Shown here in pieces: positions 18,891 through 40,162 of a stretch of 44,709 nucleotides of DNA. A model generated the notes under the pieces. The model did not search any database and had not been told where the DNA came from. It worked only from the letters and a program-made list of their open reading frames with translations. The stretch comes from Bradyrhizobium sp. (GTDB taxonomy: Bacteria; Pseudomonadota; Alphaproteobacteria; Rhizobiales; Xanthobacteraceae), in the NCBI RefSeq assembly GCF_019242285.1, contig NZ_JAFAVV010000003.1, forward strand, positions 1 to 44,709. The letters run 5' to 3'. Numbering within the stretch: position 1 is the stretch's first letter; each line of letters starts with the position of its first letter. A program made the position numbers and the translations under genes.

Positions 18891-19127
18891 GTGGGCTAGG
18901 ATTCGCCGAAGCTCGAAGAGCGAAGGCGAAGCGTGCCCACCGCCAAGATGCATGCTGTCGAGAGAATGGGAGGCACGGTGCTCCGCCCGATGCGAAGCAT
19001 CGCGCGTGTGCGTCTTAGAGCGTTTTCGAGCGAAGTGGATACCGGTTCGCGTGAAGAAAACGCGTCAAAACAAAGAAGCTGGAGCTTCCGTTCCGATTCC
19101 ATCGGAACGAAAAAGCTCTAGCCCACC
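18891..19127. repeat. Dispersed GTGGGC/GCCCAC repeat, copy 1 (interrupted by the element at 19018-19118)
   Basis: Bounded by GTGGGCTAG...TAGCCCACC; contains GCGTGCCCACC and GTCGAGAGAATGG blocks shared with the copies at 23561 and 40010. Confidence 0.75.
19018..19118. mobile_element. 101-bp MITE-like repeat nested in repeat copy 1
   Basis: GAGCGTTTTCG...CGAAAAAGCTC near-perfect TIRs (one mismatch), flanked by TA (19016-19017 and 19119-19120); internal perfect hairpin CGTTCCGAT-TCC-ATCGGAACG. Confidence 0.7.
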
Positions 19128-20005
19128 TTGCGCTTGTGCCGCGCCGGCGAGCGATGCGCCTTGTTGGGCGCGCGCCGTTGCGTCGCGCGGCGCTGGCTCG
19201 ACCGCGCGTTTGTCCGCCGTGCCGCGCCTTTTCCCTTCAGGCTCTGCTTCAGCGCGTCCATCAGATTCACGACGTTGCTTGGCCGTTCTTCCGGCTCGGC
19301 GATCTTGATCGGTTTGCCGGCGGCCTTGCGCTTCACCAGCGTCCGCAACGCGTTCTCGTATTCGTCCTTGAATTTCGACGAGTCGAAATGCGCCGCCTTG
19401 CTGTCGAGGATGTGGACCGCGAGCTCGACCATGTCCTTCGAGATTTTCGGACTCTTGATGTCGTCGAAATAGTCGTCGGCGTCGCGCAGCTCGTAAGGAT
19501 AGCGCAGGGTGGTGCCGAGCAGGCCCTTGCCGAACGGCTCGATCATCAGCACGTGCTCGCGGTTGGTCAGCACGATGCGCGACAGCGCGACACGGTCCTG
19601 ATCCCTCATCGCGTCGCGGATCACCGCAAAAGCGTCGACGCCGGCCTTGCCGTCGGGTGCGATGTAGTAAGGATGGTTCAGATAACGCGGGTCGATCTCG
19701 TCCGTGGGCACGAAACTGTCGATCTCGATCGTATGGTTGCTCTCGATCTGCACCGCGTCGAGCTCGTCCTTCTCGATCTCGACATATTTGCCCTTGGCGA
19801 GCTCATAGCCGCGCGCCTTCTGCTCGCCCTCGACAATGTCGCCGGTCTCGGCATCGACCATCTGCTGCTTCAGCCGGTTACCGGTGTCGCGGTTGATCAT
19901 GTGGAAGCGCGTCTTCTCGACCGAGGTCGAGGCCGGGTAGAGCAGGACCGGGCAGGTCACCAGCGACAGTTTCAGCGAGCCTTTCCAATAGGCGCGGGGG
20001 GCCAT
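19118..20005 (-). CDS. ku: Non-homologous end-joining protein Ku
   Basis: 295 aa; APRAYWKGSLKLSLVTCPVLLYPASTSVEKTRFHMINRDTGNRLKQQMVDAETGDIV...KGYEL/KGKYVEIEKDELDAV, FVPTDEIDPRYLNHPYYIAPDG; basic C-terminal tail. Confidence 0.97.
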   Translation of the reverse strand: MAPRAYWKGSLKLSLVTCPVLLYPASTSVEKTRFHMINRDTGNRLKQQMVDAETGDIVEGEQKARGYELAKGKYVEIEKDELDAVQIESNHTIEIDSFVPTDEIDPRYLNHPYYIAPDGKAGVDAFAVIRDAMRDQDRVALSRIVLTNREHVLMIEPFGKGLLGTTLRYPYELRDADDYFDDIKSPKISKDMVELAVHILDSKAAHFDSSKFKDEYENALRTLVKRKAAGKPIKIAEPEERPSNVVNLMDALKQSLKGKGAARRTNARSSQRRATQRRAPNKAHRSPARHKRKVG

Positions 20006-20050
20006 TCACGATCTCCAGCGTTTCCAAGCCTTTATTTGCAGGGGCTTTTC

Positions 20051-20083
20051 GGAACTCCAACGGACGTTCGGGGTTTTGGTTCC
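20051..20083. promoter_or_regulatory. Divergent interleaved EcfG-type promoters for ligD (+) and ku (-)
   Basis: Plus: GGAAC (20051-20055)-N17-GTT (20073-20075). Minus: GGAAC (20083-20079)-N16-CGTT (20062-20059). About 54-58 bp before each start codon. Confidence 0.65.
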
Positions 20084-20132
20084 GTAGAGGTGTGCTAGGC
20101 TCTCAAGGCCGGGCGATTACGAGAGACTGATT

Positions 20133-22829
20133 GTGCCGTCGCGAAAACTGTCGACCTACCGGAAGAAGCGCGATTTCGAGCAGACCTCCGAGCCCTCAGG
20201 CGAGGTCGAGGTCGCGCCGTCGAAGCGCCGCCGCTTCGTGATCCAGAAGCATGACGCGACCCGGCTGCACTATGACTTCCGGCTCGAGTTCGACGGCGTG
20301 TTCAAGTCCTGGGCGGTTACGCGCGGCCCCTCGCTCGACCCGCATGACAAGCGGCTCGCGGTCGAGGTCGAGGACCACCCGCTCGACTACGGCGACTTCG
20401 AAGGCACCATCCCCGAAGGCCAGTATGGCGGCGGCACCGTGCAGCTCTGGGACCGCGGCTACTGGGAATCGGACGATCCGGAACGTGGCTTCAAGAAGGG
20501 CGATCTCAAATTCACCCTCGATGGCCACAAGCTGCACGGGAGCTGGGTCCTGGTGCGCATGCGCCATAATCGCGACGGCAGCAAGCGCACCAACTGGCTG
20601 CTGATCAAGCATCGCGACGACTTCGCCAGGGAGGGCGAGGCGAACGACATCCTCGACGAGGATCGTTCGGTGGCCTCGGGCCGGACCATCGCGCAGATCG
20701 CCGAGGGCAAGGGCAGGGCGCCAAAGCCGTTCATGCTGGCGAAGAACGGCCGGGGCAGGGCCGACGCGGTGTGGAATTCCAACCGCGGTGAGGCCGCCGA
20801 GGCGCGCGCGAAAGCCAAAAATAACGACGAGGCTGATCCGAAGGCGACGTCTGCGAAGGCGCAGGCGGCGGTGACAGCGAAGGCAAAACGGATCGATTCG
20901 ATTCCCGATTTCGTCGCGCCGCAGCTCTGTGCCGCGGTCGATCAGCCGCCGGGCGGCGCGAATTGGGGCCACGAGATCAAGTTCGACGGCTACCGGGTGC
21001 AGCTTCGTGTCGAGCACGGCAAGTCGACGCTGAAGACCCGCAAGGGCCTCGACTGGACCGACAAGTTTCAGGCCATCGCGCAAGAGGCGCGGGCGCTCCC
21101 GGACGTCATGATCGATGGCGAGATCGTCGCGCTCGACCACGACAATGTGCCGAATTTCTCCTCGCTGCAGGCGGCGATCTCCGACGGCGATACCAGCCGG
21201 CTGATCTTCTTCGCCTTTGATCTTCTGTTCGCGGAGGACATGGACCTGCGCCGGCTGCCGCTCTCGGAGCGCAAGCGTCGGCTGAAGGAGCTGTTGGACG
21301 CGCGGCCGAAGAGCCAGGCGAAATCGGTCCGCTATGTCGAGCACTTCGAGGCCGAAGGCGAAGAGGTGATGGAATCGGCGCGCAAGCTGAAGATGGAGGG
21401 TATCGTCTCCAAGCGGCTGAGCGCGCCCTATCAGTCCGGCCGCACCGAGAGCTGGACCAAGGCCAAGGTCCGCGCCGGGCAGGAGGTCGTGATCGGCGGC
21501 TGGAAGACCACCGGCGGCAAGTTCCGCTCACTGATGGCCGGCGTACAGCACGATGGTCATCTCGCCTATGTCGGCATTGTCGGCACCGGCTTCGGCCAGG
21601 ACAAGGTCAAGTCCATCATGCCGGCGCTGAAGGCGGCGGCATCGCGAGAGAGCCCGTTCGGCGGCAAGAACGCGCCGCGCAAGACGCGCGAGATGCACTG
21701 GGTGAAGCCGGAGCTGGTGGCCGAGATCGAATTTGCCGGCTGGACCGCCGACGGCAACGTGCGCCAGGCCGCGTTCAAAGGGTTGCGGCTGGACAAGGCA
21801 GCGAGCGAGGTGGTGGCGGAACGCCCGCACATGGCCAGCGTCGCGCAGCCCGCGACGGCGCGGGCCCAGGTCAAATCGGCGAAGGCGGCCACCGCGCGGG
21901 CCAAGCCCGCGGACAAGAACGGCGGCGAGGTGATGGGCGTCGTCATCTCCAAGCCGGACAAGGAGCTGTGGCCGGACGGCGGCGACCGCGAGGGCGTGAC
22001 CAAGCTCGACCTCGCGCGCTATTTCGAGCAAGTCGGCGAATGGATCATCCCCTATATCAAAGGGCGGCCGTGCTCGATCGTGCGCGCGCCCGACGGCATC
22101 GATGGCGAAAAATTCTTCCAACGTCACGGCATGCAGGGCACCTCGAAGCTGCTCGAGCTGGTCAAGGTGTCGGGTGACCGCAAGCCCTATCTGCAGATCG
22201 ATCGAATCGAAGGTCTCGCGGCGGTCGCCCAGGTGGGGGGCCTTGAACTACACCCATGGAATTGCGCCCCCGATGAATACGACATGCCGGGACGGCTGGT
22301 GTTCGATCTCGACCCCGCGCCTGATGTCGCGTTCGCCGAAGTGATCGAGGCGGCGAAGGAGATGCGGCAACGTCTTTCCGACCTCGGAATGGAGAGCTTC
22401 TGCAAGTCCACCGGCGGCAAGGGCCTGCATGTCGTCGTGCCGCTGCGTCTCGGTGCGAAGGACAAGGTGAGCTGGCCCGAGGCCAAGGCTTTCGCGCAAG
22501 GCGTCTGCCAGCTGATGGCGGCCGAGGATCCCGAGCGCTACCTGCTCAACATGTCGAAGAAGCTGCGCAAGGGGAAGATCTTCCTCGATTATTTGCGCAA
22601 CGACCGGATGTCGACGGCGGTCAGCCTGCTGTCGCCGCGGGCGCGGCCGGGCGCCACGGTGTCGATGCCGCTGAGCTGGTCGCAGGTGAAGGACGATCTC
22701 GATCCGAAGCGCTTCACCATCCGCACCGCACCGAAGCTGATGGCGAAGAACAAGGCCTGGCAGGGATTCGACGACGCGGCCTCATCGATCAAGGCGGCGA
22801 TCAGGAAGCTTGCGGAGAAGGCCTCTTAA
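20133..22829 (+). CDS. ligD: ATP-dependent DNA ligase D (phosphoesterase-ligase-polymerase)
   Basis: 898 aa, GTG start; N-terminal PE domain ([32 protein letters not shown]), ligase core ([14 protein letters not shown]...[10 protein letters not shown]), C-terminal polymerase domain ([41 protein letters not shown]). Confidence 0.98.
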
Positions 22830-23531: not shown

Positions 23532-23560
23532 TCGGGCCTCGTTTTTAGCGAGATGCGGAG

Positions 23561-23766
23561 GGTGGGCTAAGCGCAGCGTGCCCACCAATTACGGGCAATG
23601 CCGTCGAGAGAATGGTGGGCACGGCGCTGCGCGCCTTAGTCGTACTAAGTCACATGTGTGGTGCTCTCGTTGAAACTCTTGAGCTTTTTGGAACGACCAT
23701 ATTTGCACAAAGACGAGTCGATTCAATGGCTTGAGTCTTCTTGTGACTCAGTACGATTAGCCCACC
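23561..23766. repeat. Dispersed GTGGGC/GCCCAC repeat, copy 2 (interrupted by the element at 23640-23756)
   Basis: GGTGGGCTAAGCGCAGCGTGCCCACC...GTCGAGAGAATGGTGGGCACGG...TTAGCCCACC; between convergent genes. Confidence 0.8.
23640..23756. mobile_element. 117-bp MITE-like insertion with 15-bp TIRs and TTAG target duplication
   Basis: TCGTACTAAGTCACA (23640-23654) vs TGTGACTCAGTACGA (23742-23756), 14 of 15 complementary; TTAG at 23636-23639 and 23757-23760; visibly lower GC than flanks. Confidence 0.75.
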
Positions 23767-26553
23767 CTACGAGACCTCGATGCGCTTGCGGGCCGTTTTG
23801 GCCGGGGTTTCCATCCGCGCCTTCAGCAAGGCGACCGGCAGGTGCTGGAACAGCGTGGCGAGCGGAAGCTCGCTCGTGCCGGCGTCCTCCATGGCAAAAC
23901 CGCTCACATCGACAAAGCCGTCGAAGACATCTGCTGAGGGCCATGTCCGGCCGCCTTGCGAAAGCGGCGCGAACGTGCGTCCGGCCACGACGATCGCGGC
24001 GTCCCTGCCGCGACGTCGGGCGAAGGCGATGACGTGGCTGCGATGCGTGCCGCTCACCTCGAGCGGATGATAGTCGCCGAAGGTGAAAACCTCCGCGAGC
24101 TCGTGCCGGAGTTTCAACAGGTGTGCGGTCCAGGCGAGCTTCAGCCGCCCGCTGCGCCAGTCCTGCACCAGCGCCTGCCAATCGGGAGCCTTCAGCGCCT
24201 CCAGCATATTGGCGCGCGCGTCAAAATCGATCGGGCGGCGATTGTCGGGATCGACCAGCGAGAGGTCCCAGAGCTCGGTGCCCTGGTAGAAGTCCGGCAC
24301 GCCCGGCAGCGTCGCCTTCAGCGTGACCTGGCTCAGCGAGTTGAGCGCGCCCAATAGCGCCACGCGCTGCGAGAAGGTCGCGAGCGAATCGAGGAACTCG
24401 CCCGAGGCTTCGCGATCCAGGATCCCTTCGATGAAGCCGTGCAGTCCCGCCTCATAGGCCTCGACGGGATTGAGCCAGCTCGTCTCCTGCTTGCCTTCGC
24501 GCGCAGCCTTCGATGCATAGGCCTGGATGCGCTCGGCGAAGGCGTCATCCTGCGCGGCTACGGGAAAGGCGCCGAGCAGCGCCTGGTACAGCATGTATTC
24601 GGCGGTCACCGACGGCGCGCGCATCTCGCCCCTGGTGACGACATGCGGCGCATTCAGGACCTTCCATTTCGCGACCGTGCTGGTCCATTCGCCGGATATT
24701 TCGGACAATGCCGCGAGCCTGGCGCGGGCATCCTCGCCGCGCTTGGTGTCGTGGGTCGCAGTCGCCGTCATGCCATGCGGCCAGGCCCTGGCGCGCGCCT
24801 GCATCAGCGCGTGAAACGCGGCGACCGACAATCCCTTCGAGGCCGGGTCGCCGCCGACCTCGTTGAGCGCGAGCAAGCGATGGTAGCGATAGAACGCGGT
24901 GTCCTCCAGCGACTTCGCCATCAGCGGACCGGTGAACTGCTGCAGCTTCAGCGCGAAGCGCCGCACCCGAGCGGTCGAGTGCGCGGTCTCGCCGCGCCGG
25001 ATCAGGTCCATGGTGATGGTGTCGCGAAGGAAATCGAAAATGCCGTCGTCGGCGGCGAACCAATCCGCTCGCGCCCGTTTGACGGTCTCGCCGATCAGCT
25101 CGCGGTCGTGTGCGCTCGGCCCGGGCGCCGTCAGATAGGTGCGGTAGACCGGGAAGTGCAGCACATAGAGCTCGAGCGCCTGGGTCAGGCTGTCGGCGGA
25201 ATAGTCGCGGGTGGAATAGTGCCCGTTGGCGATGCGGGCCAAGAGCCGCGCCAGCACGGTGAACTCGCTGGAGAGCAGCGTCCGCAGCACGCGCCGCTTG
25301 GCGCCGCGCAGCACCGGCTCGAGCCGGGGCGGGGTCGATGAAATCTGCCGCCAGATCTCGTCCAGCGCGTCGAGTCCGCTCGGCTCGACCAGCACCTGGG
25401 TGATGACGTTCATCCACTCGTAGCCGGTGGTGCCGTGCACGCCGGCGAAGGCCTGCAGCTTCTCGCCTTCGCCGAGGATCTTCTCGACCACCAGATAGAA
25501 TGGCCTGGGATGCTTGCCCTGGGCGTCGCGGATCAGGCGGCGCAGGCGCTGGAAATATTGCGCGGGATCGCGCAGGCCGTCGATGTGGTCGAGCCGCAGA
25601 CCCTGCAGCCGGTCTTCCGCGATCAGCCGCTTCACCAGTTGATGCGAGGCATCGAAGGTCCCGGCATCCTCGACCCGAAGCCCGGCGAGCGTGTTGACGT
25701 CGAAGAAGCGGCGATAGTTGATGTCGCTCGAGGCAAGCCGCCAGTGACCGAGCTTGTAGTGCTGACGCTCCAGGAGATGATGCAGGGCGAGCGTCGGCGC
25801 CGGGCGGTCCTTTCCCGCGCGATAGGCGGCAAGTCCCTGCGCGATGAGCTCGGCCGCGCCGATCGCCTTCAGCGCGGCCTTGAAGGAAGGCGCTTCCTCG
25901 CGGTTCGGATGGCGCAGGCCCCGGTAGCGCGACGCCAATTCGAGGATGCGCCGGCCAGCCTCGCTGTCCTCGGCGCCGGCTTCCTTCACGATCATCCGCA
26001 GCACCTCGGCGTAACGCTCGGGCGCGATCGGCAGGCGGTGCTCGAAATACCAGCAGGAGAAGCTGCCTTCGTCCGCATCGTAGCGCAGCTCGATCTCGCC
26101 GCGCTCCAGCGCCTCGCCATAGGAAACGCCGAGGATCGGCAGCAGCACGCCGCCGCGCGCGCGGTAGGGCAGTTGCTCCCAGTCGATGTCGAAGGAGACC
26201 GCGCGCGGCGAGGCCGGGCCCCATTCCAGGACATCGAGCCACCAGGGATTGTCGGCGTAGTGCACGCCGACATGGTTGGGCACGAAGTCGAGGATCAGGC
26301 CGAGATCGTGCTGCTTCAGCGCCTCACTCAACTGCGCGAAGCCGGCTTCGCCGCCGAGCTCCGGGTTCAGCCGGGTGTGGTCGACGACGTCATAACCATG
26401 GGTCGAGCCCTTGCGTGCCTTCATGAAGGGCGAGGCGTAGAGATGGGTGATGCCGAGCGCCTTCAGATAGGGCACGATCTCGGCCGCCTTGTCGAAGCCG
26501 AAATCCTTGGTGAGTTGAAGCCGATAGGTCGCGAGCGGGATCGGCGACGCCAT
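23767..26553 (-). CDS. treY: Maltooligosyl trehalose synthase
   Basis: 928 aa; MASPIPLATYRLQLTKDFGFDKAAEIVPYLKALGITHLYASPFMKARKGSTHGYDVVDHTRLNPELGG; RLDHIDGLRDP and VPDFYQGTELWDLSLVDPDNRRPID. Confidence 0.97.
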   Translation of the reverse strand: MASPIPLATYRLQLTKDFGFDKAAEIVPYLKALGITHLYASPFMKARKGSTHGYDVVDHTRLNPELGGEAGFAQLSEALKQHDLGLILDFVPNHVGVHYADNPWWLDVLEWGPASPRAVSFDIDWEQLPYRARGGVLLPILGVSYGEALERGEIELRYDADEGSFSCWYFEHRLPIAPERYAEVLRMIVKEAGAEDSEAGRRILELASRYRGLRHPNREEAPSFKAALKAIGAAELIAQGLAAYRAGKDRPAPTLALHHLLERQHYKLGHWRLASSDINYRRFFDVNTLAGLRVEDAGTFDASHQLVKRLIAEDRLQGLRLDHIDGLRDPAQYFQRLRRLIRDAQGKHPRPFYLVVEKILGEGEKLQAFAGVHGTTGYEWMNVITQVLVEPSGLDALDEIWRQISSTPPRLEPVLRGAKRRVLRTLLSSEFTVLARLLARIANGHYSTRDYSADSLTQALELYVLHFPVYRTYLTAPGPSAHDRELIGETVKRARADWFAADDGIFDFLRDTITMDLIRRGETAHSTARVRRFALKLQQFTGPLMAKSLEDTAFYRYHRLLALNEVGGDPASKGLSVAAFHALMQARARAWPHGMTATATHDTKRGEDARARLAALSEISGEWTSTVAKWKVLNAPHVVTRGEMRAPSVTAEYMLYQALLGAFPVAAQDDAFAERIQAYASKAAREGKQETSWLNPVEAYEAGLHGFIEGILDREASGEFLDSLATFSQRVALLGALNSLSQVTLKATLPGVPDFYQGTELWDLSLVDPDNRRPIDFDARANMLEALKAPDWQALVQDWRSGRLKLAWTAHLLKLRHELAEVFTFGDYHPLEVSGTHRSHVIAFARRRGRDAAIVVAGRTFAPLSQGGRTWPSADVFDGFVDVSGFAMEDAGTSELPLATLFQHLPVALLKARMETPAKTARKRIEVS

Positions 26554-39995: not shown

Positions 39996-40009
39996 AAGCG
40001 GAGAGGTAG

Positions 40010-40153
40010 GGTGGGCTGAGGCGCGCACGCGACGATGCTTCGCATCGCGCGGAGCGACGTGCCCACCATTCTCTCACGGCCTGGCTTCAAAATGGTGGGC
40101 ACGCTCCTGGCTTTGCGTGGCGAGCTTCTGTGCATGCGGCTGCTTAGCCCACT
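40010..40153. repeat. Dispersed GTGGGC/GCCCAC repeat, copy 3 (uninterrupted at the TTAGCCC site)
   Basis: GGTGGGCTGAGG...GTGCCCACCATTCTCTC...ATGGTGGGCACG...GCTTAGCCCACT; between convergent GH15 and HAD genes. Confidence 0.75.
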
Positions 40154-40162
40154 CTGCGAACT

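Follow-up and report, generated by a model that had tools for sequence, protein, structure and literature searches.

A recently spread MITE of probable IS701 type inserts preferentially at REP stem–loop junctions in a Bradyrhizobium genome

The locus

The stretch of DNA analysed here (the window) comprises 44,709 nucleotides of a Bradyrhizobium sp. contig (NZ_JAFAVV010000003.1), which belongs to a fragmented draft assembly of 7.83 Mb in 979 contigs, 92.5% complete. A convergent treY-like gene (23767–26553, minus strand) ends there on a TAG stop codon (23767–23769, minus strand) provided by the GTAG tag of an interrupted REP – a feature reported for GTAG REPs generally (PMC3733652) – and about 10 bp past this stop codon starts a 117-bp element without coding capacity of its own (23640–23756, plus strand). 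Divergent genes resembling Ku and LigD of bacterial non-homologous end joining lie a few kb away, at 19118–22829; both were recognised by translation alone.

The element is bounded by a left terminal inverted repeat, TCGTACTAAGTCACA (23640–23654, plus strand), in which the other copies end alike, and by a right one (23742–23756, minus strand) that reads TGTGACTCAGTACGA on the plus strand and TCGTACTGAGTCACA on the minus strand; the two can pair at 14 of their 15 positions and enclose 87 bp. On either side stands TTAG (23636–23639 and 23757–23760), a target site duplication that conforms to YTAR and is evident both from direct reading and from the alignment of the copies. With 43.6% GC, the element stands out from the flanking 500 bp on either side (64.7%), and equally GC-poor 117-mers make up only 0.03% of all 117-mers of the window. 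As a single strand, the element is predicted to fold with its ends paired (z = −2.9 relative to shuffles). It contains no gene; an Rfam search returned nothing credible, and a scan of the region gave one terminator-like match (23714–23733), not significant, and no promoter-like matches. The original prediction – a MITE-like element of 117 bp with 15-bp terminal inverted repeats, a TTAG duplication and an interior less GC-rich than its surroundings – is thus borne out by direct reading and by the 21 copies described below. Being short, non-coding and bounded by inverted repeats, and having multiple copies, target site duplications and empty sites, the element is a MITE.

The host repeat

The dispersed repeat into which the element had been proposed to be inserted can now be identified: by its sequence, it is a head-to-head dimer of GTAG-type REPs. 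The repeat unit consists of GTAG, a stem GGTGGGC, an unpaired TAA, a variable loop that often has a stem of its own, and GCCCACC; it is a palindrome of 20–40 bp with a terminal GTAG, present in many intergenic copies and in dimers, as GTAG REPs are. The first REP of the host dimer (23557–23586, plus strand; GGAG-GGTGGGC-TAA-loop-GCCCACC) has a tag mutated from GTAG to GGAG and a hairpin z of −2.1, compared with −5.3 and −3.7 for clean single units. The second (23614–23770, minus strand) is split by the MITE, with GGTGGGC (23614–23620, plus strand) on one side and GCCCACC (23760–23766) followed by the GTAG tag (23770–23767, minus strand) on the other; with the MITE removed, the joined empty site reads GTAGGGTGGG^CTAAGGCGCGCAGCGCCGTGCCCACC. 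The window's other REP dimer (40006–40156; tag GTAGGGTGGG at 40006, TTAG at 40144–40147) is an uninterrupted paralogue that reads CTGCTTAGCCCACT at the corresponding point, so that the earlier designation of the copy at 40010–40153 as an empty site proves correct. Twenty uninterrupted dimers read from the genome share this layout, inverted and with the GTAG tags outside, and exact matches to GTAGGGTGGGCTAAG number 86.

Di Nocera 2013 (PMC3733652) describes GTAG REPs of Bradyrhizobium, among which GTAG-14 has several loop types, including long GCGG/CCGC loops, and head-to-head dimers are common. The repeat described here has in common with them the GTAG tag, the 7-bp GC-rich stem, the three unpaired nucleotides that precede a variable loop with GC edges, and head-to-head pairing with GTAG outside. 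The family is probably GTAG-14, an assignment made from the published text description and not from a consensus sequence. The orthologous locus of relatives was considered as a clean empty site and set aside: matches to the two flanking genes lie much closer together there (e.g. in G037), and relatives seem to lack the REP dimer as well.

Copies of the element and their age

A search of the element's own genome yields 21 matches (E ≤ 7e-28, about 96–100% identical), 17 of them whole or nearly whole in length and four cut by contig ends, and contig C269 starts with the last bases of one further copy. Mean divergence from the consensus is 1.2% among 16 full-length copies, a low value that points to a recent burst of spread. 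Copies with the same termini, which the original prediction had proposed to seek in Bradyrhizobiaceae genomes, thus exist in the own genome, with YTAR duplications; the 271 other genomes of the genus gave no match at E ≤ 0.01, and the 117-mer had none in a plasmid collection. Support beyond chance is confirmed by the 21 copies with shared ends and YTAR duplications, the 20 element-free paralogues and the absence from congeners.

Choice of target site

Identical YTAR tetranucleotides (CTAA, TTAG or CTAG) flank 15 of the 17 complete copies, the remaining two being L003, flanked by CTAA/TTAG, and L016, which is degraded. All copies except one (20/21) lie at a single fixed REP point, GTAG-GGTGGG^CTAA-loop-GCCCACC, where the duplicated tetranucleotide is the one right after GTAGGGTGGG (with variants in L002, L004, L006, L013 and L016); this point corresponds to the predicted junction of the REP stem and the unpaired trinucleotide. 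Copy L002 lies within a different palindrome, and the exception, L011, has a perfect CTAG duplication in unrelated DNA outside any REP. The copies point either way with respect to the REP, in about equal numbers, and use both ends of the dimers; the loops and spacers around the copies vary and match uninterrupted loop variants. The original prediction would have been refuted by an element found in every copy of the host repeat, or by a lack of other copies. Besides the 21 copies, most of the genome's 182 GGGTGGGYTAR sites are free of it.

YTAR is scarce in this genome (226 occurrences in 265 kb, an estimated ~6,700 genome-wide), and REP ends therefore make up a notable share of the possible IS701-type targets: REP junctions account for about 3% of YTAR sites genome-wide and for 4.9% in the sampled 265 kb. 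At a share of 2.7%, the binomial chance that at least 19 of 21 copies fall at such sites is ~4e-28, and the conclusion is unchanged if all GG(T/C)GG-type neighbours are counted (18 of 226 in the sample). Insertion at the REP junction is strongly preferred, not incidental. One copy seems to have had a more complicated history: L003 (G000:C352:20708–20824) reads GTAGGGTGGGCTAA-MITE-TTAGCCCACCCTAC and looks as if two MITE copies, one at each end of a single REP dimer, had recombined with loss of the intervening DNA.

IS701 elements with related ends

When 272 genomes of the genus were scanned for YTAR followed by the MITE end, with at most one mismatch, eight matched, seven of them besides the own genome. 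In five of these seven, an IS copy is bounded by, or starts with, an end of the form TCGTACTGAGTCA(G/C)A or TCGGACTGAGTCACA, and the end TCGTACTGAGTCAGA, which bounds the 1,503-bp elements, agrees with the terminal repeat of the MITE at 14 of 15 bases. The original prediction had suggested looking for an IS that shares the element's end; the search gave these ISs, which agree at 14 of 15 bases, and none whose ends are identical. Two-ended elements measure 1,503 bp (L068, with a CTAA duplication, and L069, with TTAG) or 1,523 bp (L066 and L067, with CTAG). L069 has an uninterrupted transposase frame of 439 aa, 65% identical to that of L066, whose group is recognised by NCBIfam NF033540 ('IS701 family transposase', E 3.6e-128) and by Pfam DDE_5 (E 1e-92); plasmid hits are likewise annotated 'IS701 family transposase'.

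The IS701 family, split from IS4, comprises elements of 1,400–1,550 bp with ends of the form ---YACT-Y--YR and a 4-bp duplication (De Palmenaer 2008, PMC2266710). The MITE end TCGTACTAAGTCA agrees with this consensus at six of the seven conserved positions – position 9, a Y in the consensus, is A both in the MITE and in the Bradyrhizobium IS701 elements – and the target duplication is exactly 4 bp. The element is 117 bp long and geneless, without the length of 1,400–1,550 bp and the IS701-type DDE transposase of the family, and is therefore classed among the MITEs, as one of IS701 type, and not among the IS701 insertion sequences. In common with the Bradyrhizobium IS701 elements (L068, L069 and L066), it has the YTAR duplication and ends of ---YACT----YR type; unlike them, it lacks a transposase gene, is 117 bp long where they measure ~1.5 kb, and shows no sequence similarity to them beyond the 15-bp ends.

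The likeness extends to the target. Joining the flanks of L069 gives GTAGGGTGGATTAG^CGCGAGCGTAATCCGCC, a REP split at the MITE's own insertion point, and this point is occupied by five of the nine copies of the closest IS group (L069, L070, L155, L157 and L159); the other four (L068, L154, L156 and L158) lie outside REPs, as do L066 and L067, which have the other end type. A coding IS701 group of the genus thus combines the same end, duplication and REP point, if less strictly than the MITE does. As L070 contains a run of N, its length (~500 bp) is uninformative and its ends and flanks alone were used; its status as a 500-bp derivative was set aside. Two further loci may be recorded here. In another species, L042 (G004:C221:190836–190854) reads GTAGGCCGGA-TTTGACTCAGTACGA-TTAGCGAAGCGTAATCCGCC, a solitary 15-bp IS701-type end that stands without an element at this same point of a REP and may be a scar of excision or deletion. 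In G202, an IS630-like transposase frame, recognised by translation alone (L046, 1562–2626), starts ~50 bp from the end of the IS701 element.

The search for a parent element

The original prediction noted the lack of a transposase and concluded that any mobilisation would be in trans, a view that the present data support, an IS701-family transposase being the likely mobiliser. An IS with exactly the ends of the MITE (TCGTACTRAGTCACA) was not found in the own assembly, in the 271 congeners, in 397 genomes of the order or among GTDB representatives, and an intact transposase of the closest IS701 group was not found in the own draft assembly. In the congeners and the 397 order genomes, searched at up to one mismatch, no IS with these exact ends could be paired with a transposase of its own. 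The candidates that did surface were rejected: the IS701 fragment on C525, the own genome's only IS701-like gene, is truncated, 41% identical and has no MITE-like paired end nearby; one exact match to YTARTCGTACTRAGTCACA among GTDB representatives, in a Bryobacterales MAG, has no partner end and is probably due to chance; and an order-wide scan (398 genomes) gave one other genome, whose ends lie at contig edges and resolve no element. Given an assembly in many fragments and only 92.5% complete, the parent IS may lie in an assembly gap, or may have been lost.

Possible excision footprints

Ten GGTGGG ends carry the doubled tetranucleotide YTARYTAR without the element, the rest of the REP following directly: six read CTAACTAA, one TTAGTTAG and three CTAGCTAA. 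Contig C47 reads CTAATCTAAG, and one MITE copy, L015, is itself located in a doubled YTARYTAR site. Two of the loci (L123 and L130, on G000:C146 and C826) are near-identical REP loci with the same CTAGCTAA doubling and look like a single locus assembled twice; they perhaps stem from a duplication or from an assembly of more than one strain. In 60 other genomes, YTARYTAR occurs at 16 of 1,596 GGTGGGYTAR sites. The frequency here, 10 of 195, exceeds the 5 of 486 in the five most REP-rich congeners (P = 0.002, or P = 0.005 with the doubled locus counted once), a control that is not free of such events as congeners have IS701 elements too. The doublings are suggestive – not proof – of cut-and-paste excision that would leave both target copies behind.

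Interpretation and alternatives

Taken together, the evidence makes us rather confident that the element is a recently amplified IS701-type MITE, moved in trans by an IS701-family transposase and preferring REP stem–loop junctions. In the mechanism that we propose, the transposase would bind the 15-bp inverted ends, excise the MITE and paste it into a 4-bp YTAR, which would be duplicated. Among YTAR sites, CTAA/TTAG at the junction of the GTAG-type REP stem–loop (GTAG-GGTGGG^CTAA) would be strongly favoured, the REP presumably being recognised by the transposase rather than by a host factor, and REP dimers would serve as safe intergenic landing sites. The GGTGGGC ends of REPs are GC-rich palindromes round a flexible TAA, and the attraction may act via the sequence or via an extruded hairpin. 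We are evenly divided over a broader proposal, that a Bradyrhizobium IS701 subgroup and the MITE recognise REP DNA, the element being nearly confined to REPs, sparing genes and leaving YTARYTAR behind.

Three other explanations have to be weighed. The bias towards REPs could reflect selection instead of targeting, with gene-breaking insertions elsewhere having been lost, and it is true that REPs lie between genes, for the most part downstream of them (PMC3733652), so that insertions into them are likely harmless. However, one exact REP tetranucleotide is used, not any intergenic YTAR, and the IS701 elements of other strains share this insertion point; we regard the explanation as unlikely on its own, although selection probably reinforces the bias by favouring harmless sites, without explaining its single-nucleotide precision. 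Somewhat differently, the MITE could derive from another DDE family that duplicates YTAR, such as the IS5 group, its IS701-like ends having arisen by chance. IS5 insertions also carry a YTAR duplication (PMC10359306), which makes the duplication alone indecisive, and the exact parent IS is missing; against this, coding IS701 elements of the genus share 14/15 bases of the MITE's ends, these ends fit the IS701 consensus, and IS701 elements use the identical REP point, all of which renders another origin distinctly improbable.

That nearly all copies lie within one kind of repeat might also suggest that the element is an ancestral segment of one host-repeat subfamily, not separately mobile, which spread with the REP by means of a RAYT transposase; REPs are themselves mobile (PMC3733652). 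This idea is already contradicted, and we give it hardly any credence: L011, with its perfect duplication, is not in a REP at all and L002 is in a different palindrome, the host REPs vary in loop and spacer from copy to copy and match uninterrupted loop variants, and copies are found in both orientations and at both dimer ends, with YTAR duplicated each time.

Relation to known systems and significance

MITEs and REP-targeting ISs are both known already; what is new here is an IS701-type MITE family. With NEMIS, RUP, Nezha, Bcr1 and the other bacterial MITEs listed in PMC3733652, it shares a short, non-coding structure, target duplication, 15-bp terminal inverted repeats and tens of near-identical copies per genome; its ends and interior are unrelated to theirs as far as seen, and it differs from them in being nearly confined to one site of another repeat. 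With the REP-targeting ISs IS1397, IS621, ISPpu9, ISPpu10, ISPsy8, ISRm22 and ISRm19 (Tobes and Pareja 2006, PMC1525189), it has in common that nearly all copies occupy a fixed REP point, whereas those elements are autonomous and belong to the IS3, IS110, IS4, IS256 and IS5 families, the 2006 list including neither IS701 nor MITEs. The closest precedent in arrangement is QMITE2 of Coxiella burnetii (PMC5896051), where a GTAG REP and a MITE are likewise associated and an IS inserts into the REP; there, however, the REP belongs to the MITE itself and receives an IS1111 element, whereas here it is the MITE that inserts into the REP. In the open papers searched, neither the element nor REP-junction targeting by an IS701-type MITE was found reported.

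Much of what remains is ordinary transposon biology. REP dimers occupied by the MITE lose the compact hairpin 3' of genes such as treY here, and insertions may therefore alter mRNA 3' ends. If the targeting is confirmed, IS701 and MITEs would be added to the families that home to REP hairpins, and it would become testable whether it is the REP sequence or the cruciform that attracts DDE transposases.
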